A DNA stretch of 64,000 nt from Methanobacteriota archaeon (GTDB taxonomy: Archaea; Thermoplasmatota; Poseidoniia; Poseidoniales; Thalassarchaeaceae), in contig PBMR01000005.1 of NCBI GenBank assembly GCA_002722735.1, forward strand, positions 1 to 64,000. The letters are read 5' to 3'. Shown piece after piece: positions 16,776-57,927 of the stretch. Under the pieces are notes generated by a model, which saw nothing but the letters and a program-made list of their open reading frames with translations, was not told the DNA's origin and did not search any database. Both the position numbers and the translations under genes were made by a program. Position 1 is the first letter of the stretch. Every line of letters begins with the position of its first letter.

Positions 16776-16853
16776 GGGCCCGTGGGTTAGCTTGGCCTAT
16801 ACTTGGCGCTTCGGGGGCGTTAGACCCCAGTTCAAATCTGGGCGGGCCCACCA
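16776..16853 (+). tRNA. tRNA-Pro (anticodon CGG), encoded CCA
   Basis: GGGCCCG...CGGGCCC-A-CCA acceptor; anticodon stem GGCGC/GCGTT with loop TTCGGGG; TTCAAAT T-loop. Confidence 0.92.
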
Positions 16854-46406: not shown

Positions 46407-46480
46407 ATTGCCTCACAATGGTCGCAGAACATGAGGGTGTTGGCTTCTTGAGTGAGGCATTGGTCCGCGACCTGACCAAG

Positions 46481-47713
46481 ATGTCCCGGAATGCCCCCAT
46501 AACCAAGTCTGAGGACCACCTCAGCGTGCCCGACCATCCCATCATTCACTACATCGAGGGTGATGGTATCGGCATCGACATCACACCAGTGATGATGGCT
46601 GTGGTCGACGCCGCGGTCGAGCGGGCGTACGACGCTGAGCGAGCCATCACCTGGATCGAGGTACTCGCCGGAGAGAAGGCATTCGATGCGACAGGCGAAT
46701 GGCTTCCCGATGAAACCAAGCTAGCGATGCGGGAGGGCTTGGTTTCAATCAAGGGACCGCTAACTACCCCAGTCGGAGGTGGTATACGCAGTCTCAACGT
46801 CGCACTTCGCCAGCAACTGGATCTCTATGCTTGCCTCCGCCCCCTGCGCTGGTTCAAGGGAACCCCCAGCCCCGTCAAGGACCCAGGAGCTGTCAACATG
46901 ACCATCTTCCGCGAGAATAGCGAGGACGTCTATGCGGGCATTGAGTGGGAGGCAGGAAGTGATGAGGTGCAAAAGGTAGTTGAGTTCCTCCAAGAGGAAA
47001 TGGGCGTGGTTGAAATCCGCTTTCCCGACACAGTCGGCATCGGAATCAAACCAATCAGTGAGGAGGGAACGGCTCGAATCGTTCGCGCCGCCATCCAGTA
47101 CGCAATTGATCGCGACAAGGATAGCGTGACGCTGGTCCACAAGGGCAATATCATGAAGTTCACTGAAGGTGGATTTCGCGATTGGGGATACCAATTAGCC
47201 AAAGATGAATTCGGTGCTACCGAGGTGGATGGCGGGCCATGGTGCACGTTGACAAACCCGAGGACGGGCAAGGAGGTCCTGATCAAGGATGTCATCGCCG
47301 ACGCGATGCTCCAGCAACTCCTAACCCGTCCGCGCGAGTACAGTGTGCTGGCCACGACGAACCTCAACGGTGACTACATCTCGGATGCTCTGGCCGCCCA
47401 GGTCGGTGGCATTGGCTTAGCGCCCGGTGCCAACATCAACTACGACACCGGGATCGCCATCTTCGAAGCCACACACGGCACCGCTCCCAAGTATGCCGGA
47501 CAGGACAAGGTCAACCCAGGCTCTTTGATTCTGTCAGCTGTGATGATGCTCCGCTACATGGGCTGGGGAGAGGCTGCCAGACTCATAGTGTCGGGAATGG
47601 AGGGTGCGATTAGTGCTGGCACGGTGACTTATGACCTAGAGCGCCTGATGGATGGTGCTACACTGCTCAAGTGCAGTGAGTTCGGCAAGGCCGTGATAGC
47701 CCATATGGGCTAA
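46481..47713 (+). CDS. icd: NADP-type isocitrate dehydrogenase
   Basis: [85 protein letters not shown]. Confidence 0.95.
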
Positions 47714-48122: not shown

Positions 48123-49256
48123 GTGGTAGCACTAATTGTGGGATTCGCACGCTCCCCATTCACGAGAGCGGGGAAAGGGACCCTTTCAAAAACACGCCCA
48201 GACGATGTCGCTGCGACAGTAGTAAACACCCTCCTGAAAAACCTCAATCTAGATCCTTCCCTAGTCGAGGATCTCATAGTTGGAACGGCATTCCCCGAGG
48301 GCGAGCAGGGGTTCAATCTAGCTAGGATGATAACTTTCCTCACAGACCTCCCCGAGACAGTCCCAGGAGTGACAATAAATCGCTTCTGCGGCTCGTCCAT
48401 GCAGGCGATTCATGACGCCGCTGGGCGCGTCGCCATGGGAGCTGGAGACGCATTCATCGCTGGTGGCGTCGAATCGATGACCCGAATCCCGATGACTGGA
48501 TTCAACCCGATGCCTAACCCTAGGCTCAGCGAGGATTATCCTGAGGCCTTCACCTCAATGGGAATCACAGCGGAGAACCTCGCTAGTAAGCACGGCATCG
48601 ACCGAGAGACTCAGGAGGCATTCGCAATCGAGAGCCATGCACGAGCATCGAAGGCCCGGGAATCTGGGGCATTCGTGGATGAGATCGTTCCGATTGAGAC
48701 TGTGGACGGCATAGTCGACACCGACGGTTGCATCCGTCCCGATACCAACGCCCAAGCCCTGTCCGGGCTGCGACCCGCCTTCGACGCCGATGGCACAGTG
48801 ACAGCAGGGACTTCGTCCCCACTAACGGATGGTGCCGCCTTCGTTCTAGTTTGCTCTGAGGCATTTGCCGCAGCCCAAGGACTGACACCACTCGCACGCA
48901 TCGTCAGTACAGCGGTTTCAGGCTGCGCACCTGAGATCATGGGCATCGGACCCGTCGAGGCGACGAAAAAGGCCCTTGATCGGGCAGGCCTCTCTCTCGA
49001 TGACATCGATGTCGTCGAGTTAAACGAGGCATTCGCCGCCCAATCACTCGCAGTCATAGGTGATCTCGATCTCGACCCCTCGAAGGTCAATATCGAGGGC
49101 GGGGCCATCGCCATCGGCCACCCCCTCGGTGCCAGCGGCGCACGCATCACCGGGAAGGCAGCCCAGTTATTGCATCGCAATGGCGCCGAGCGGGCTCTCG
49201 CGACCATGTGCGTGGGAGGAGGTCAGGGCATTGCGACCATCCTCGAGAAGATATAG
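48123..49256 (+). CDS. fadA-like: Acetyl-CoA acyltransferase/thiolase
   Basis: NRFCGSSMQAIHDAA (catalytic Cys), NEAFAAQSLAV, GGAIAIGHPLGASGARI, MCVGGGQG. Confidence 0.95.
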   Translation: MVALIVGFARSPFTRAGKGTLSKTRPDDVAATVVNTLLKNLNLDPSLVEDLIVGTAFPEGEQGFNLARMITFLTDLPETVPGVTINRFCGSSMQAIHDAAGRVAMGAGDAFIAGGVESMTRIPMTGFNPMPNPRLSEDYPEAFTSMGITAENLASKHGIDRETQEAFAIESHARASKARESGAFVDEIVPIETVDGIVDTDGCIRPDTNAQALSGLRPAFDADGTVTAGTSSPLTDGAAFVLVCSEAFAAAQGLTPLARIVSTAVSGCAPEIMGIGPVEATKKALDRAGLSLDDIDVVELNEAFAAQSLAVIGDLDLDPSKVNIEGGAIAIGHPLGASGARITGKAAQLLHRNGAERALATMCVGGGQGIATILEKI

Positions 49257-51659
49257 GTGGGCGACCGAATGGCTCCGAAGACAATGAGCATCGAGGTCGA
49301 CGCGGAGAGTGCCGCTTCGCCCCAAACATCTATCCAAAAGGTCGCTGTCATCGGAAGCGGTGTGATGGGCGCGGGAATCGCGGCACATTGCGCTAACGCC
49401 GGGTGTGAGGTTCTCCTACTGGACGTCTTACCCAAGGACGCCGATGACAGGAGTGCCATTGCAAGGGGGGCCATCGGGCGGATGCCGAAGTCTAATCCTG
49501 AGATGCTGATGCACAAGAGCTACGCAGGGCGAATCACTCCGGGAAACATCGAAGACGATCTCCCGAAGCTAAAGGAGATCGATTGGGTAATAGAGGTTGT
49601 AATCGAGAATCTAGACATCAAGCGCAACCTGTACGACAGCCTAGTTGAGCACCTCGGCCACCGTACGATTCTCTCATCCAACACATCGACCCTGCCTCGC
49701 TCCGAACTCACACATGGGATGCCCCATGACGTAGCCTCTAGGTTCCTGATTACCCACTTCTTCAACCCTCCACGATACATGCCTCTTCTGGAGGTTGTCG
49801 CAGGAGGAGAGGTGGACGAATCCGTCATCGAGCGCTTCTGCGACTTCGCCGACGAACGGCTCGGCAAGCGCGTCACTATGTGCAACGACACTCCGGGATT
49901 CATCGGGAACAGGCTTGGCGTCTTCTTCGGCCAACGCGCCTTCAAGGCCACACTCGACCACAGCTTCACCGTTGAGCAAGCCGACGCCATGGCGGGCCGC
50001 CCAATCGGGATGCCAAAGACCGCCGTATTCGGGCTCATGGACCTCGTCGGCGTCGATTTGGTACCTCACGTGATGGAGAGCATGCTTGCCCACCTGCCCC
50101 CTGACGACCCCTTCCACGAGATTGCTGGCACGGGAACCGAGATCGTCTCCTCTATGATTGAGGAAGGTTATACCGGCCGCAAGGGCAAGGGCGGGTTCTA
50201 TCGTCTCAACAAGGTCGATGGGAAGCGAGTCAAAGAGGCAAGATCCCTTTCAACGGGCGAGTACGCCCCTGCGAATCGTAGGGCAGCATTCCCATCAGCA
50301 AAAATGGGCAAACAGGGCCTCGAAGCCTTGCTGGACTACCCGGACGAGGGCGCGGCCTTCATCTCCGATGTGCTGCTGGACACGCTGTCCTACGCAGCTT
50401 ACATGGTTCCCGAGGCAAGCGACGACATTTATGCCATCGATGGTGCGATGAGAGTCGGCTACAACTGGAAGCGCGGCCCCTTTGAGATGATGGATGAAAT
50501 AGGTGCGAGCTCCATGGTAGAGCGACTCGTTTCATCGGGTCGCGTAGTGCCACAGTTCCTCAACTTGGCTGCAGATAAAGGCGGCTTCTACGCTGTGAAG
50601 GATGGTGAGATTCAGCGACTATCACCCAACGGGAAGATGCTGAAAGTCGAACGCCCCGACTCTACCCTATCGGTGGCGGACCTCAAGCGTCGAGGGAAGC
50701 CGCTGACTCGCAACGGGTCTGCGAGTGTTTGGGACATGGGCGATGAGGTACTGCTCGTCGAGTATCACACCAAGATGAACGCCATGGATCCAATGAACAT
50801 GGAAATGTTGCTCAATGCCATCGATATGGCAGAGTCAGATGGATGGAAGGGGGTGGTGATCGGAAACGACGCCTCGAACTTCTGCGCCGGCGCGAACCTC
50901 GGCCTAGCGCTCTTTGCAGCCAACCTCGCTGCTTGGAAGGAGCTGGAGGACTTCATCAGCCTCGGTCAGGATACCTATCAGGCGGTCAAGTACTCCGAGG
51001 TCCCGGTCGTCGCTGCCTCCGCAGGAATGTGCTTGGGCGGTGGAACCGAGATTCTGATGCACTGCGACGCCGTTCAGGCACACGCCGAGTCTTATGTCGG
51101 ACTGGTCGAGGTCGGCGTCGGCATCGTGCCCGCATGGGGTGGCTGCAAGGAGCTGCTCGGCCGTCTGCGTGATTTCGAAATATCCAGTGGTGGGCCAATG
51201 GGGCCCGTCATGCAGGCATTCGAGACGATTGGAACCGCACAGGTCGCCAAGTCCGCCGAGCAGGCTCGTTCCAGGGGCTTCCTCGGTCCGAAGGATAGGA
51301 TTACCATGAATCGGGATAGGCTGCTCTCTGACGCAAAGGCACGTGTGCTTGAGATATCCCAGGACTACACCCCACCCGAACCGCACTCATACCACTTGCC
51401 CGGACCATCTGGCAGAGCAGCACTCCAACTTGCGGTCAACGACCTCGCCTTATCGGGTAGGGCTACCCCGCACGATGTCGTCGTCGCTAGCGAGCTCGCT
51501 ATAATTCTCTCCGGAGGGGATACCGACGTCACCGAGACATTGGGAGAGGACGAGATACTCGCTTTGGAGAGAGAGGCAATCGGTAGGCTCGGACGGGACA
51601 CAGCGACCCTGGATCGAATGCAGCACATGCTTGAGACTGGCAAGCCCCTGAGGAACTGA
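49257..51659 (+). CDS. fadB-like: Bifunctional 3-hydroxyacyl-CoA dehydrogenase/enoyl-CoA hydratase (HADH N-terminal, ECH C-terminal)
   Basis: VAVIGSGVMGAGIAAHCANAG, SSNTSTLPRSELT, THFFNPPRYMPLLEVV; C-terminal crotonase NFCAGANLGL and AGMCLGGGTEILMHCD. Start 49257 (GTG) or 49269 (ATG). Confidence 0.95.
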   Translation: MGDRMAPKTMSIEVDAESAASPQTSIQKVAVIGSGVMGAGIAAHCANAGCEVLLLDVLPKDADDRSAIARGAIGRMPKSNPEMLMHKSYAGRITPGNIEDDLPKLKEIDWVIEVVIENLDIKRNLYDSLVEHLGHRTILSSNTSTLPRSELTHGMPHDVASRFLITHFFNPPRYMPLLEVVAGGEVDESVIERFCDFADERLGKRVTMCNDTPGFIGNRLGVFFGQRAFKATLDHSFTVEQADAMAGRPIGMPKTAVFGLMDLVGVDLVPHVMESMLAHLPPDDPFHEIAGTGTEIVSSMIEEGYTGRKGKGGFYRLNKVDGKRVKEARSLSTGEYAPANRRAAFPSAKMGKQGLEALLDYPDEGAAFISDVLLDTLSYAAYMVPEASDDIYAIDGAMRVGYNWKRGPFEMMDEIGASSMVERLVSSGRVVPQFLNLAADKGGFYAVKDGEIQRLSPNGKMLKVERPDSTLSVADLKRRGKPLTRNGSASVWDMGDEVLLVEYHTKMNAMDPMNMEMLLNAIDMAESDGWKGVVIGNDASNFCAGANLGLALFAANLAAWKELEDFISLGQDTYQAVKYSEVPVVAASAGMCLGGGTEILMHCDAVQAHAESYVGLVEVGVGIVPAWGGCKELLGRLRDFEISSGGPMGPVMQAFETIGTAQVAKSAEQARSRGFLGPKDRITMNRDRLLSDAKARVLEISQDYTPPEPHSYHLPGPSGRAALQLAVNDLALSGRATPHDVVVASELAIILSGGDTDVTETLGEDEILALEREAIGRLGRDTATLDRMQHMLETGKPLRN

Positions 51660-51668
51660 GGTGAGTGA

Positions 51669-53474
51669 ATGGTGGAATACAACGCACCTATACGGGACTA
51701 CGAATTCCTGTACAACGAGGTCTTAGATGCGATTCCAACCGCACAGAGGCTGGGCTTCGTTGACTTCGATGCAGAATTTTTGTCCATGTTGATGGAGGGA
51801 TGGGCCGAGCACACTACTGAAGTCTGGTTACCAATCAACCAATTGGGAGACATTGAGGGCCTCAAGTTCGAGGATGGAACCATCAAGATGCCTCAGGAGT
51901 TCAAGGATGCCTATCGAGAGGGCATCGAAGGTGGTTGGATGTCCACCTCATGCAAGCCTGAGCATGGTGGTATGGGTGTCCCAGTTTTCTTCCAATCTGT
52001 TACCTGGGCGGAGTTCGGGACTGCTGCAAACATGGCAATGAGCGTACTTCCTGCTCTTTCAGTAGGAGTCTATGAGGTACTGACAGAGCACGGAGATCAG
52101 GAGTTAATTGATTACTTCGCAACAAACCTAGCTTCCGGTGAGTGGTCGGGTACGATGTGCCTGACTGAACCGCACGCAGGCACGGATCTAGGCATTATCA
52201 CAACTAAGGCCGAGCCGCAGGAGGACGGAACCTACAGAGTTTCAGGGACGAAGACCTTCATCACTTACGGCGAGCATGACATGACCGACAATATCGTTCA
52301 CCTTGTTCTCGCAAAGACTCCCGGGGCCCCAGAGAGCACTAAGGGAATCACGCTCTTCTTGGTCCCGAAGTTCTTGCCTGCAGAGTGGGAGTCCGGCGGG
52401 GTTGAGGCCCTGTCTCAAGAACTCATGGCGACTCACAATGGGGTCACTTGCTCGGGCAGCGAGGAGAAGATGGGACTGCATGCCTCACCGACCTGTGTCA
52501 TGAACTTCGATGAAAGCATCGGATGGAGGGTTGGCGAACTCCATGAAGGAATGTCCCTGATGTTCCAGATGATGAATAGGGAGAGGGTTGCAACGGGTAT
52601 GATGGGAATCGGCCTCGCAGAAATAGCATATCAGAACGCACTAGCGTGGGCCCGCGAAAGAAGGCAAGGCAGAGACCTCAAGGGAATGCAGGATCCCAAT
52701 GAGAGGGCAGACAACATCCTAGTTCATCCGGATGTGCGCAGAATGCTGCTTGAGGCCAAGGTCAACAACGAGGGCTGCAGAGCCTTAGCGGCATGGACGG
52801 GGCTGCTGCTCGATCAGATGAGTAGCGAGGATCCGGAGGAAGCAGAGTACGCGAATGCTCTGATATCATTGTTCACCCCGATAGTCAAGGCACACTTCAC
52901 CGATTTGGGCTGCGAGACTGCAAGCACCTGCATGCAGGTGATGGGTGGGGCGGGATACTGTTCCGAGTTTGGCGTCGAGCAATTCTATCGCGATGTCAGG
53001 ATTTCCAGAATCTGGGAAGGCACCAATGGTATCCAAGCATTGGATCTAACCGGGCGCAAAATCACCCAAAACATGGGTAAGAACCTACGCCACCTGATGT
53101 GGCCACTCACCGAGTTCATCGAGGAGAACCGGGACATTCCTGAGATGTCCGAATTCAACAAACCACTTCACCAAGGGGTTCGAGGCCTCCAACATCTCAC
53201 CCTTCTACTGATTGCCGAGGGTCAGGCCAATCCCCACTTCCTAGCCGCTGGAGCCACTGACTACTGTCGCTATTTCGGCAACATATTGCTCGCCTACATG
53301 TGGGCAAGGATGGCCAGAGTCGCGCTTGAGAGTGTCGGGGATCCGTTCTATGATGCCAAGATCGCTAGTGCCCGCTTCTTCTTCAAGAGAATCTTTCCTG
53401 AGACGGTAGGGCTTGCAGCCAAGATTCAAGCTGGGCACAAGCCCATGATGGAATACCCGGAGGCGATGATGTGA
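51669..53474 (+). CDS. Acyl-CoA dehydrogenase
   Basis: WSGTMCLTEPHAGTDLG, YRVSGTKTFITYGEHDM, CMQVMGGAGYCSEFGVEQFYRDVRISRIWEGTNGIQALDLTGRK. Confidence 0.95.
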   Translation: MVEYNAPIRDYEFLYNEVLDAIPTAQRLGFVDFDAEFLSMLMEGWAEHTTEVWLPINQLGDIEGLKFEDGTIKMPQEFKDAYREGIEGGWMSTSCKPEHGGMGVPVFFQSVTWAEFGTAANMAMSVLPALSVGVYEVLTEHGDQELIDYFATNLASGEWSGTMCLTEPHAGTDLGIITTKAEPQEDGTYRVSGTKTFITYGEHDMTDNIVHLVLAKTPGAPESTKGITLFLVPKFLPAEWESGGVEALSQELMATHNGVTCSGSEEKMGLHASPTCVMNFDESIGWRVGELHEGMSLMFQMMNRERVATGMMGIGLAEIAYQNALAWARERRQGRDLKGMQDPNERADNILVHPDVRRMLLEAKVNNEGCRALAAWTGLLLDQMSSEDPEEAEYANALISLFTPIVKAHFTDLGCETASTCMQVMGGAGYCSEFGVEQFYRDVRISRIWEGTNGIQALDLTGRKITQNMGKNLRHLMWPLTEFIEENRDIPEMSEFNKPLHQGVRGLQHLTLLLIAEGQANPHFLAAGATDYCRYFGNILLAYMWARMARVALESVGDPFYDAKIASARFFFKRIFPETVGLAAKIQAGHKPMMEYPEAMM

Positions 53475-53476
53475 CC

Positions 53477-54535
53477 ATGGCTGAAGAACGGACAAAAAGA
53501 AGCCTCAGACGAGGCCGGGCAGCAGCCTATGAAAAGACCCCAGTCAACTGGGCCCCGACCATACCGGGCGTGCTGATGATAGTGATTCCTATGGAACTAC
53601 TCGCCCTAGCAGCATTGCCCGAGTGGCGCGCAAATCAAACCTCATGGCTATTGTTTGGCATCACTATCCCATTCGCAGCCTGGCTCTTTGTTTACTGGAA
53701 GATTTACCTCTCTGTATTCGTCACCACCAGTGGCGTTCCCGCCGAACCAATCAATCCCAGATGGAACCCATTCACATTCATGGGGTGGGGTGGAGAGACG
53801 CTCAAGGCAAATCTTCTCGAGTCCGACGAGAAGAGCGAGGACCTGCTCCTATTCCTCCACGGCTACGGGTCCTGCCTGTCTTGGGGGGAGTCGAGACCCT
53901 TGCATATCCATAGCATGGGGGTCAACGTAATCAGCCTTGACTTGAGGGGCTTTGGTAAACAAAAGGGCAGGTTGGACTGGACCCTCCTAAAGGTCATAGC
54001 CGACATTGAAGGGCTGTTGGAAGGGACCCCTTCAATTCTGGGATTCAAGCCGCAGAGACTGTGGATCTATGGGCACTCCATGGGCGGTTTCATTACCATC
54101 AGGCTAGCTTCCCACCACTCTGGTTGGTGGGGGGATGCACTACAGGGAATCATACTGGAGTCCCCCGCAGCGTCCTTCCCTATGATCATCGATAACAACT
54201 TACCCGGCAGGATGGTCATGGCAAGACCATGGGTCAGACAAGTGTTGAGGAGGGAGCACGAGCGAATACATCCCGACTTGAATGTCAGATATGCCAACTC
54301 GGAACTCCCCTACTGTGGCATTCCCGAGGTACCCGCACTCGTCGTGCAAGCAGAGCACGATGAGACTCTCGGGACGGAGCACTTCGCGCTAATTCAGGAG
54401 CACATGGCTGAGAACTCCGAAATCCACGTCCTCGACATGCCTCACACATCCACGGTGGATACCGATGAGCGACGCTCGACGGTCGAGGTGTGGATGGAAG
54501 AGCAACTCGGCTACAATAGGAACGTGAGTGGATGA
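53477..54535 (+). CDS. Alpha/beta-hydrolase with N-terminal TM segments
   Basis: LLLFLHGYGS, LDLRGFGKQKGR, IYGHSMGGFITIRLA (GxSxG), QAEHDETLG, MPHTSTVD. Confidence 0.9.
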   Translation: MAEERTKRSLRRGRAAAYEKTPVNWAPTIPGVLMIVIPMELLALAALPEWRANQTSWLLFGITIPFAAWLFVYWKIYLSVFVTTSGVPAEPINPRWNPFTFMGWGGETLKANLLESDEKSEDLLLFLHGYGSCLSWGESRPLHIHSMGVNVISLDLRGFGKQKGRLDWTLLKVIADIEGLLEGTPSILGFKPQRLWIYGHSMGGFITIRLASHHSGWWGDALQGIILESPAASFPMIIDNNLPGRMVMARPWVRQVLRREHERIHPDLNVRYANSELPYCGIPEVPALVVQAEHDETLGTEHFALIQEHMAENSEIHVLDMPHTSTVDTDERRSTVEVWMEEQLGYNRNVSG

Positions 54536-54789
54536 GCTTGAGGAGTAGGTTCGAGCGGGCCCAGAAGAAGGTGTGGAGGCTTCCGCTCAGGCCCTCAGAC
54601 GAGAAACTGCTACAACTCTACGCTCTCTTCAAACAAGGATCTGTGGGGGATTGCTCCGGGAGAGCAAGAGGCGACGTCAAGCAACGCTGGAAGTGGAAGT
54701 TCTGGAAGCGTTTGGAAGGCACGCCGAAGGAGGAGGCCATGTTGCGATATTGTGACATGGTGGATGCTTTGATGAGCGCAGGCGGGTGA
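54532..54789 (+). CDS. Acyl-CoA-binding protein (ACBP) family
   Basis: SRFERAQKKVWRLPLRPSDEKLLQLYALFKQGSVGDCSGRARGDVKQRWKWKFWKRLEGTPKEEAMLRYCDMVDALM matches ACBP (PSDEexLxLYaLyKQatvGD, KxxxWxxxxGxSkeeAmxxYi). Confidence 0.93.
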   Translation: MSLRSRFERAQKKVWRLPLRPSDEKLLQLYALFKQGSVGDCSGRARGDVKQRWKWKFWKRLEGTPKEEAMLRYCDMVDALMSAGG

Positions 54790-54810: not shown

Positions 54811-55311
54811 ATGCCAATCGATGATACCAAGCTCGAATCAGAGCTCAAAGGCCTAAGGCGACGCATGAGGTTCCGGCTTTTCACCGCCCTGTCCATGCCC
54901 GCAGCCGCCTTCGTTGGACTCGGGATCAATCGAATCGACAAAACCACCTGCGTTACCTCCCTTCCCGGTGGATGGCGGACCCAGAACCCCTTTCGAACGA
55001 TGTATTGGGCGGTCCAGGGAATGGGGGCAGAGCTCTCTACTGGGGCTGCCCCCTTCGCTTTGTCCAGGTCGATGCCGGAAAAGTTGAGGATGTTTGTCGT
55101 CGGCGTTGAGAGTACATTCACCAAGCGTGCAAAGGGAAAAGTCACTTTCATCTGCGAGGACGTCGAAAAGACCCGCAAAGCAATCGAGGAGAGCCTCGCT
55201 ACGGGGGAATCGGTCAATTGTAACCTCAAGTCGATAGGCCACGACTCGTCGGGGGACGTTGTGTCAGAGTGGGTATTCAAGTGGAACTTCCGAGTATTAC
55301 AGGATAGGTGA
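54811..55311 (+). CDS. Hotdog-fold thioesterase-like (DUF4442/PaaI-like) protein
   Basis: NRIDKTTCVTSLPGGWRTQNPFRTMYWAVQGMGAELSTGA pattern of hotdog thioesterase-like proteins. Confidence 0.7.
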   Translation: MPIDDTKLESELKGLRRRMRFRLFTALSMPAAAFVGLGINRIDKTTCVTSLPGGWRTQNPFRTMYWAVQGMGAELSTGAAPFALSRSMPEKLRMFVVGVESTFTKRAKGKVTFICEDVEKTRKAIEESLATGESVNCNLKSIGHDSSGDVVSEWVFKWNFRVLQDR

Positions 55312-55315
55312 CTCC

Positions 55316-56314
55316 ATGGAAACCCATTCCCGACTCACCGAGCATGCTGGGGTCGAGTACCCAATCATCTGCGGTGCAATGTACCCTTGTTCAAATCCCG
55401 AGCTTGTGGCAGCTGCCTCCGAGGGAGGAGGAATTGCCATCGTCCAGCCCCTTTCCCTCACCGAAGTTCACGGATTCAACAAGCCCGACAGGATTGAGGG
55501 ACTCAGGATCGCAATCCGTCACATCAGAACCCTCACTGACAAGCCGATAGGATTCAACGCACTAATCGAGAAGGGCAGTGAGAAGTACCTCCAGAAAATG
55601 TCTGAGTGGATAGACGTAGCACTGGAAGAGGGCATTCGGTTCTTCGTCACCTCCCTTGGTAAACCAGATTGGGTATGCGAGAAGGTTCACGCCTATGGCG
55701 GTGCAGTCTACCATGACGTTACCAATCGCAAGTGGGCTGAGAAGGGCAAGGAATGCGGTGTCGACGGTCTGATCTGCGTCAATAACCGTGCAGGGGGCCA
55801 TCTTGGCGACATGACGATGGAGGAGATGTACGAGGAGCTCTGCGACATGGGCCTATCCTTGGTATGCGCTGGGGGGATTGGCAGCGAGGTCGAGCTCAAC
55901 AGGGCTCTGGAGATTGGCTACGACGGCGTCCAGATGGGGACTCGCTTCATCGCCACGACGGAGTGCTCCACCCCCCAGGATTACAAGGATGCCATCGTAG
56001 AGGCCGGTGAGGGCGACATCACATGGACCACCAAGCATACCGGTGTCCCAGTTGCGGTATTCAAGACTAGGGGTTTCAAACAGCACAATTCGTGGCTGGT
56101 CCGCAAGCTATTGTCCGGTCGCTTCAAGCACAGGGTCAGAGCAACGCTGTCCGCATACAGCGTCCTCCGGTGGAAGGCATTCGGCAAAGGCAAGAAGAAG
56201 TCCTCCAAGGATCTCTGGTCGGCGGGTAAGAGCGTTGAGACCGTGCGCAGCATCGAGTCCGCTACCACTATAATGCACCGTCTCGGAGAGTCGACCTCAA
56301 CCGAATCCGAATAA
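55316..56314 (+). CDS. Nitronate monooxygenase/FabK-like FMN-dependent TIM-barrel enzyme
   Basis: YPIICGAMYPCSNPELVAAASEGGG, NNRAGGHLG, SLVCAGGIGSEVELNRALEIGYDGVQMGTRFIATTEC. Confidence 0.9.
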   Translation: METHSRLTEHAGVEYPIICGAMYPCSNPELVAAASEGGGIAIVQPLSLTEVHGFNKPDRIEGLRIAIRHIRTLTDKPIGFNALIEKGSEKYLQKMSEWIDVALEEGIRFFVTSLGKPDWVCEKVHAYGGAVYHDVTNRKWAEKGKECGVDGLICVNNRAGGHLGDMTMEEMYEELCDMGLSLVCAGGIGSEVELNRALEIGYDGVQMGTRFIATTECSTPQDYKDAIVEAGEGDITWTTKHTGVPVAVFKTRGFKQHNSWLVRKLLSGRFKHRVRATLSAYSVLRWKAFGKGKKKSSKDLWSAGKSVETVRSIESATTIMHRLGESTSTESE

Positions 56315-56359: not shown

Positions 56360-56827
56360 GTGGACCCAGTTCGCGCCACCATCATCCTAGTCCATCCTCT
56401 AGCTGCCCTCTCTCTCATCTGGCTGTTCTACGGGCAGAGGCGATGGCGCCGCGACTCCCACGTTCTCGACAAAGACGGCTTGAGGGCGTCGGTAGAGCGC
56501 CACGAATCGATGGGTGTCAGAATCACAGTTGCAACTCTTTGCATCGTCGTACTGGCCTTCGGCTCGAATGCAATCAGAGGATTAATCGATGCCAACGATG
56601 CAACCTCTTACTTGCTACCCGGGCACTTCCACGGCTGGACTGGCCTCCTAGGACTGATGCTGATGCTCGTTCTCTGGATGCTTGGACGGAAGACCCAGGA
56701 TGCGAAGACCGCTGGTGAGTCCTTCGCTAAGGAGATGCAGATGCACGGCAGGCTCAGCGAATTGATGGCAGTGCTTGCCGTGATTCATGCATTCCTAGGC
56801 TTCCTCTACTTGCTGACCATCCTGTGA
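56360..56827 (+). CDS. 4-TM membrane protein (DUF4079/cytochrome b561-like topology)
   Basis: His residues in predicted TM helices (HPLAALSL, HFHGWTGLLG, HGRLSELMAVLAVIHAFLG). Confidence 0.55.
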   Translation: MDPVRATIILVHPLAALSLIWLFYGQRRWRRDSHVLDKDGLRASVERHESMGVRITVATLCIVVLAFGSNAIRGLIDANDATSYLLPGHFHGWTGLLGLMLMLVLWMLGRKTQDAKTAGESFAKEMQMHGRLSELMAVLAVIHAFLGFLYLLTIL

Positions 56828-57808
56828 GTGCCGATTCGCCCAAATGTCAAGCCAAGCAGCAAGATTTGCCTTGATGTCAGAGTCGACCACCCTCCTCGCT
56901 CCCCCCTCACCGTCCTTCAATGGCCGGATTCTACAACCGCAGGCATTGGCGTGACCCCCTCCATCTGGGTCGAAGCGGGTAGCCAAGCGGGTGAGATCGA
57001 AAACCCCTCCCTCAGGGTGGAGGAAGGAATTGGTGTAGAACGAGGCCGAAACAGGGTATCGCCCTTCCTCTCCGAAAGCCGCTCCGACGTTGCCGTGAAC
57101 GATTACACAGGCATCACAGGCATCGCCCACAAGCGCAGTAACGTGGTAGCCGTTCGAGCGCATGCCAAGATCCTCAAGACGAGCGATAGCCAGCCTATCG
57201 TCCACGTACACACACTCCAGTATCGCTTGTGTGAGAGCCACTCGTTGGTCCCTGCGCTCTGCGACCCTAGAAGCGATATCAGACTCAGAGAGAATCGCCT
57301 TGATGCTCTCCCCCTCTTGCAGTGACTCGAGCACGCTCATTGCCGTCCCTTCTCCAACATCTATTACACGACCCAGCCAGACTGCTGGATGGTCCGAGAG
57401 GTACTCCTCTCTCGTGACTCCGCCACCATCTAGCTTGTCCACCCACGTCAAGAGATCTTCTAGGTCGGACAGATCCACTCTCTCGGACACCAATTCGTAG
57501 GCGATTCTTGCAGCCGAGGGAGTGTTCCGCCAGACGATGACGGAATCGGACCCATCATCCTTGGAGGGCTCGTTAGTCTGATGGTGATCGATGCTCAGAC
57601 CGCAGTCGGGATGTCGTGGAAGATCACAGACTGCGGTGTTCCTGTCCATCTGTCCGTCGAGAAGACCAGCCCGCAACTCTCCTGGGTGACCGAAGACCAC
57701 TTCAGCTTCTGGCCACCATCGCCGCAGAATCGCCGCAGTGACAACTCCATCTAGGTCGCTGTCGGTGACAATGCGACGTATGTCTAGGTCTAGCGGGGCG
57801 GCGGCCAT
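56795..57808 (-). CDS. DHH-family phosphoesterase
   Basis: RRIVTDSDLDGVVTAAIL, CGLSIDHHQTNEP, DPDGGGHANACGCRI (DHHA1 GGGH). Confidence 0.92.
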   Translation of the reverse strand: MAAAPLDLDIRRIVTDSDLDGVVTAAILRRWWPEAEVVFGHPGELRAGLLDGQMDRNTAVCDLPRHPDCGLSIDHHQTNEPSKDDGSDSVIVWRNTPSAARIAYELVSERVDLSDLEDLLTWVDKLDGGGVTREEYLSDHPAVWLGRVIDVGEGTAMSVLESLQEGESIKAILSESDIASRVAERRDQRVALTQAILECVYVDDRLAIARLEDLGMRSNGYHVTALVGDACDACVIVHGNVGAAFGEEGRYPVSASFYTNSFLHPEGGVFDLTRLATRFDPDGGGHANACGCRIRPLKDGEGGARRVVDSDIKANLAAWLDIWANRHSQDGQQVEEA

Positions 57809-57927
57809 CCCAATGTAGCCAAAGCATCCCCCCAATGGTGGTTTCGCAACGAGCCCCTCTGCCCACGCAAGGTTTTCATCCGGGGGCAAGGCTCAGTTAG
57901 GATGTGCGCGACTCGGTCGAAGGGAGT

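Follow-up and report, generated by a model that had tools for sequence, protein, structure and literature searches.

An acyl-CoA-binding protein in a fadNAE-like beta-oxidation operon of Marine Group II archaea

The window, that is, the whole stretch of 64,000 nt analysed here, belongs to the genome of a Marine Group II archaeon (Poseidoniales, Thalassarchaeaceae); at positions 54532-54789 of its plus strand lies an open reading frame of 85 codons, starting with ATG, which encodes an acyl-CoA-binding protein (ACBP). A sequence-only reading had described the product as a single-domain ACBP of 85 amino acids, which is correct: the protein matches the Pfam family PF00887 over residues 6-77 with 74.4 bits (cut-off 28.3; E 8.5e-21), its nearest solved structure by sequence is that of yeast ACBP (1st7, E 2.8e-15), with bovine, armadillo, and human ACBP as further solved relatives, and it consists of one domain only, not joined to another as in the extended ACBD proteins. 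A six-frame search of the whole genome (1.4-Mb assembly) retrieved no other copy of PF00887. The same reading had singled out the presence of an ACBP in an archaeon; the host is indeed archaeal, but the occurrence is not without precedent, as archaeal ACBPs forming their own branch were reported from metagenome data (Islinger et al. 2020, PMC7057175). The window gene itself adds one more member to a family already known.

The ACBP gene shares the tetranucleotide ATGA with the gene upstream, whose stop codon ends at 54535, so the overlap is exactly the 4 nt read previously. This upstream gene (53471-54535, plus strand) encodes an alpha/beta hydrolase (Hydrolase_4/Abhydrolase_6) with the nucleophile elbow GHSMGG, possibly a (thio)esterase, and itself overlaps by 4 nt the gene before it, which encodes a long, FadE-like acyl-CoA dehydrogenase (51669-53474, plus strand) with the C-terminal Pfam domain PF12806 and the catalytic Glu motif EGTN; its best NCBIfam match is Bacillus FadE, with a score under the cut-off. 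Further upstream are a fusion of 3-hydroxyacyl-CoA dehydrogenase and enoyl-CoA hydratase (HAD+ECH; 49257-51659, plus strand; domains 3HCDH_N, 3HCDH, and ECH_1) and a FadA-type thiolase (acetyl-CoA C-acyltransferase; 48123-49256, plus strand; Thiolase_N/C). The fusion has the dehydrogenase part first, which is the FadN-like order, and contains the His-Glu and two-Glu motifs; its best NCBIfam match, Staph_FadB, covers the full length with 482 bits, which is under the cut-off of 999. The thiolase matches TIGR01930 with 451.7 bits (cut-off 240.55) and has the catalytic Cys/His/Cys motifs (RFCGSS, GHPLGASG, CVGGG). Thiolase, HAD+ECH, and acyl-CoA dehydrogenase genes lie on one strand with gaps of 0-9 nt; from these short gaps and the 4-nt overlaps, co-transcription of the operon is inferred.

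Downstream of ACBP, in the window as in many loci of Thalassarchaeaceae, follows a gene for a DUF4442 protein (54811-55311, plus strand; PF14539, 33.8 bits, cut-off 25), which we take to be hotdog/thioesterase-like, and after it one for an NMO-family flavoprotein (55259-56314, plus strand; PF03060, 106.9 bits), the likelier start of which is the ATG at 55316, past the DUF4442 stop. The nearest named kin of the flavoprotein are enoyl reductases of the FabK type (TIGR03151, 125.5 bits, under the cut-off of 453). The cluster is flanked on the left by a gene of the isocitrate dehydrogenase family (46418-47713, plus strand; PF00180) and on the right by a DHH-type phosphoesterase-like gene (56795-57889, minus strand; named by eye), a flank which is kept both with and without the operon.

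In Bacillus, the fadNAE operon is composed of FadN, FadA, and FadE. The archaeal cluster shares with it the HAD+ECH fusion in FadN order, the FadA thiolase, and the long FadE dehydrogenase, all on one strand and conserved in relatives, and differs in that it adds the alpha/beta hydrolase, ACBP, and either the DUF4442-NMO pair or a short-chain dehydrogenase (SDR) resembling HSDL2, and in that the HAD+ECH and dehydrogenase sequences score under the curated equivalog cut-offs. Judged by sequence, the genes upstream of ACBP make up a full cycle of beta-oxidation on the pattern of Bacillus fadNAE. The beta-oxidation cluster which the sequence-only reading saw around ACBP is thus real; as for the functional acyl-CoA pool that it derived from this setting, the complete operon with its catalytic motifs and the single AMP-binding ligase encoded elsewhere in the genome, which could make acyl-CoA, render it a reasonable inference.

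Whether the protein has the means to bind acyl-CoA was judged from an alignment of 40 sequences, all derived from DNA, on which the residue statements made here rest. Phe7, Leu27, Tyr30, Lys34, Lys54, and Tyr73 occupy invariant columns, also in the archaeal and bacterial rows. Of the seven ligand residues (Phe5, Leu25, Tyr28, Tyr31, Lys32, Lys54, and Tyr73 in bovine numbering without Met; listed by Islinger et al. 2020, PMC7057175, with the first Met included), six are kept; the Tyr and Lys residues asked for at the outset are present as Tyr30, Lys34, Lys54, and Tyr73, and the sole change is that of Tyr31 (bovine numbering) to Phe33, which is common to many relatives. An AlphaFold2 model (mean pLDDT 94.5) has helices at residues 3-14, 23-37, 49-59, and 66-83 and is predicted to be the four-helix bundle of ACBPs; its best Foldseek matches are ACBPs, with liganded human ACBP (2cb8) on top (TM 0.91, rmsd 1.1 Å). 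In length, four-helix fold, and the residues contacting CoA and the acyl chain, the protein equals the small ACBP/DBI family (ACBD1; bovine, human, yeast, and rice); it differs in being archaeal, in being encoded in a beta-oxidation operon, in having Phe in place of Tyr31, and in the loop between helices 2 and 3, which is shorter by two residues in the clade of the window protein than in eukaryotic ACBPs.

Across 319 genomes of the order Poseidoniales, PF00887 was matched in 67 and PF12806 in 65. The ACBPs of the order are of two types, and that of the window, the operon type (type A), is found in 59 genomes; 58 of these also encode the PF12806 dehydrogenase, in every case on the contig of the ACBP gene and no more than 1.8 kb from it, and in the one exception (G511) ACBP, SDR, and hydrolase lie at a contig end. 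A Fisher test on this co-occurrence takes no account of kinship and is of descriptive value. ACBP is therefore a near-constant partner of the fadA-fadN-fadE-like operon. The converse is less strict: seven genomes, representing seven species, all of the genus of the window, have the dehydrogenase operon without type A ACBP, which indicates that ACBP is helpful but dispensable. In two of them (L158 and L163) the hydrolase gene is directly followed by DUF4442, and no remnant of ACBP was detected at E<0.5 in the ACBP-less operons (L157-L163). In L157, L159, and L160 a small open reading frame, in which a methyltransferase-like glycine motif is discernible by eye, fills the place of ACBP, DUF4442, and NMO after the hydrolase.

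The window dehydrogenase found no homologue above about 31% identity in 12 genomes lacking ACBP; in eight of ten of these genomes a single contig carries both the isocitrate dehydrogenase and the DHH flank, at a distance of 0.66-5.3 kb, and six such stretches, when read, contained no operon gene. The operon is thus a cassette, present or absent at one site between fixed neighbours.

The interpretation we favour, with a probability of roughly 0.8, is that the protein is a true single-domain ACBP, acting as carrier of acyl-CoA in an archaeal beta-oxidation operon of the fadA-fadN-fadE type. Fatty acids would be converted to acyl-CoA by the AMP-binding ligase of the genome; ACBP would bind the long-chain ester with Tyr30, Lys34, and Lys54 on the phosphate side of CoA, Phe7 and Tyr73 in contact with the adenine, and the acyl chain in the hydrophobic cleft between the helices. 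Bound in this way, the ester may be kept in solution and shielded from the hydrolase and the thioesterase-like product of the same operon until it is handed to the long FadE-type acyl-CoA dehydrogenase. Buffering of long-chain acyl-CoA and its transfer to FadE-type beta-oxidation is the most likely role that the sequences suggest, and the persistence of the operon without ACBP in several species argues for a protein that improves the pathway rather than enables it.

An unlikely alternative, though the strongest one, is that ACBP serves the synthesis or remodelling of acyl-CoA, acting with DUF4442 and the FabK-like NMO protein in the saturation or release of chains, in which case the operon would be partly synthetic. 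It draws on the kinship of the NMO protein with enoyl reductases, on the hotdog-like character of DUF4442, and on the fact that ACBP, DUF4442, and NMO remain together in many relatives. However, the constant partner of ACBP is the FadE-type acyl-CoA dehydrogenase, and the DUF4442-NMO pair does not occur in the loci that have an HSDL2-like SDR, nor in some of the remaining ones; moreover, archaeal membranes consist of isoprenoid ethers, which gives little reason to expect a large demand for fatty acyl groups in these organisms.

In 12 genomes of Poseidoniales, belonging to five genera and to both families, ACBP makes up the N-terminal domain in a reading frame of 364-435 amino acids, the rest of which is a short-chain dehydrogenase (L014:6774-8078, minus strand; L021:6711-7847, minus strand; L023:7375-8466, plus strand; and L024, L044, L047, L176, and L178-L182). 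The SDR part has human HSDL2 as its closest match (3kvo; E 1.3e-67 and 2.1e-67), passes the NCBIfam model NF006133 (320.6 bits, cut-off 250), and keeps the Tyr-x-x-x-Lys motif; at a position where human HSDL2 has Ser (in "SPP"), both the aligned archaeal protein and one bacterial relative have Ala. An AlphaFold model of the fusion is poor (pLDDT 54) and carries no weight here. In three further genomes (L020, L164, and L173) SDR and ACBP are encoded by two genes directly side by side, which brings fusion or adjacency to 15 genomes in all; the SDR and the DUF4442-NMO pair were never seen together in the loci examined. In the tree, all fused operon-type ACBPs group in a single clade (99/88), and the fusion therefore probably arose once. 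The window genome has the unfused ACBP, and a search of it for an HSDL2-type SDR yielded only generic SDRs, the best with 33% identity. A different combination, in which a SnoaL-like (NTF2-type) domain is attached to ACBP, occurs in a single genome from another family of this class (L175:6074-6877, plus strand).

In animal HSDL2, the SCP2 domain is thought to present the substrate. Human HSDL2 (SDR and SCP2) and ECI2/ACBD2 (ACB domain and enoyl-CoA isomerase) resemble the archaeal fusion in that a lipid carrier domain is joined to an enzyme acting on fatty acyl compounds, but the archaeal protein has an N-terminal ACBP in place of the C-terminal SCP2. In the relatives concerned, the fused or adjacent ACBP may present a substrate of the acyl-CoA type to the HSDL2-like SDR. 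It seems somewhat probable, although with less assurance than the carrier role as such, that the ACBP lineage of Poseidoniales is a dedicated part of a beta-oxidation cassette which is gained or lost, and that in part of the order it has become a built-in domain delivering substrate to an HSDL2-like dehydrogenase (and, in a single genome from another family of the class, to a SnoaL-like protein). If so, extended ACBD proteins would here be described for the first time from organisms other than eukaryotes, and they would parallel the SCP2 domain of animal HSDL2. Extended ACBP forms were not found in prokaryotes in the review of Islinger et al. (2020, PMC7057175), and the literature searched, which mostly excluded subscription journals, contained no later report of them; nor was the pairing of ACBP with an HSDL2-like SDR found there. 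Genes for fatty acid degradation are on record for Marine Group II, several families being reported to lack intermediate steps (Tully 2019, PMC6336850). What appears to be new is the tie of ACBP to the operon, the behaviour of the latter as a cassette, and the archaeal fusions, by which the known ACBP architectures are extended; for archaea abundant in the ocean, a complete set of beta-oxidation enzymes is found in one operon. In eukaryotes, acyl-CoA feeds many pathways, which makes it hard to single out what ACBP does; here, evolution ties the protein to one pathway and supplies natural controls (operons that have ACBP, that lack it, or that have its fused form, and genomes lacking both), so that its contribution to beta-oxidation becomes directly testable with small recombinant proteins.

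The second archaeal type (type B) comprises proteins of about 108 amino acids with the motif RK[VI]YA[YF]YKQ (L165-L172), mostly from genomes without the operon. No conserved beta-oxidation genes surround them, and two genomes (G412 and G438) have two copies; beta-oxidation need not, therefore, be the sole use of ACBP in archaea. Among 390 sampled genomes of the phylum, the one phylum sampled, ACBP is confined to the class of the window. Small ACBPs of other prokaryotes (Burkholderiales, Hymenobacter, Chloroflexota, and Myxococcota; archaeal ones, PMC7057175) have the same single domain and the same residues as the window protein; the archaeal operon type differs from them in forming a separate clade, and the bacterial loci in lacking beta-oxidation neighbours, as no homologue of thiolase, HAD/ECH, or acyl-CoA dehydrogenase was found at any of 72 of them (flanks of up to 6 kb per side, some ending at contig ends). 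One Chloroflexota locus (Ardenticatenaceae; L123:9653-10486, plus strand) has an HSDL2-like SDR (E 7e-72) about 5 kb away, which echoes the archaeal pairing.

The phylogeny proposed at the outset as a check for horizontal transfer, which spans 82 columns and includes the Babesia bovis protein 2lbb, places the operon-type ACBPs in one clade without any eukaryotic member (100/99) and type B in another (99/100). At this alignment length, AU tests are compatible with all the groupings tried, whether operon-type and type B archaeal proteins are forced into one clade (p = 0.377), eukaryotes into one clade (0.394), or type B together with eukaryotes (0.353). On these results, the sequences weigh neither for nor against transfer from eukaryotes as such, and no direction of transfer is claimed. 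The narrower proposal that ACBP was recently taken up from a eukaryote as a single gene, without special link to a pathway, can appeal to these open placements and to ACBPs being known chiefly from eukaryotes (PMC8174751, PMC7057175), but is improbable, and more so than a synthetic role, because one archaeal clade extending over two families with conserved operon order speaks against a recent entry into the group. That the operon is really bacterial or eukaryotic, and reached these mostly fragmented metagenome assemblies by faulty binning or assembly, is very unlikely, to the point of being negligible, since it lies mid-contig between the same flanks in many separate assemblies, several of them titled archaeal, and these flanks are near neighbours also in relatives without it.

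Two other features of the window may be mentioned. ARAGORN places a tRNA-Pro at 16776-16853, which the Rfam tRNA model does not reach at gathering score; a tRNA-Ala adjoins it on the other strand. The segment 60769-64000 is repetitive and of low complexity, with open frames on both strands, and is perhaps part of a large repeat surface protein extending past the window end.
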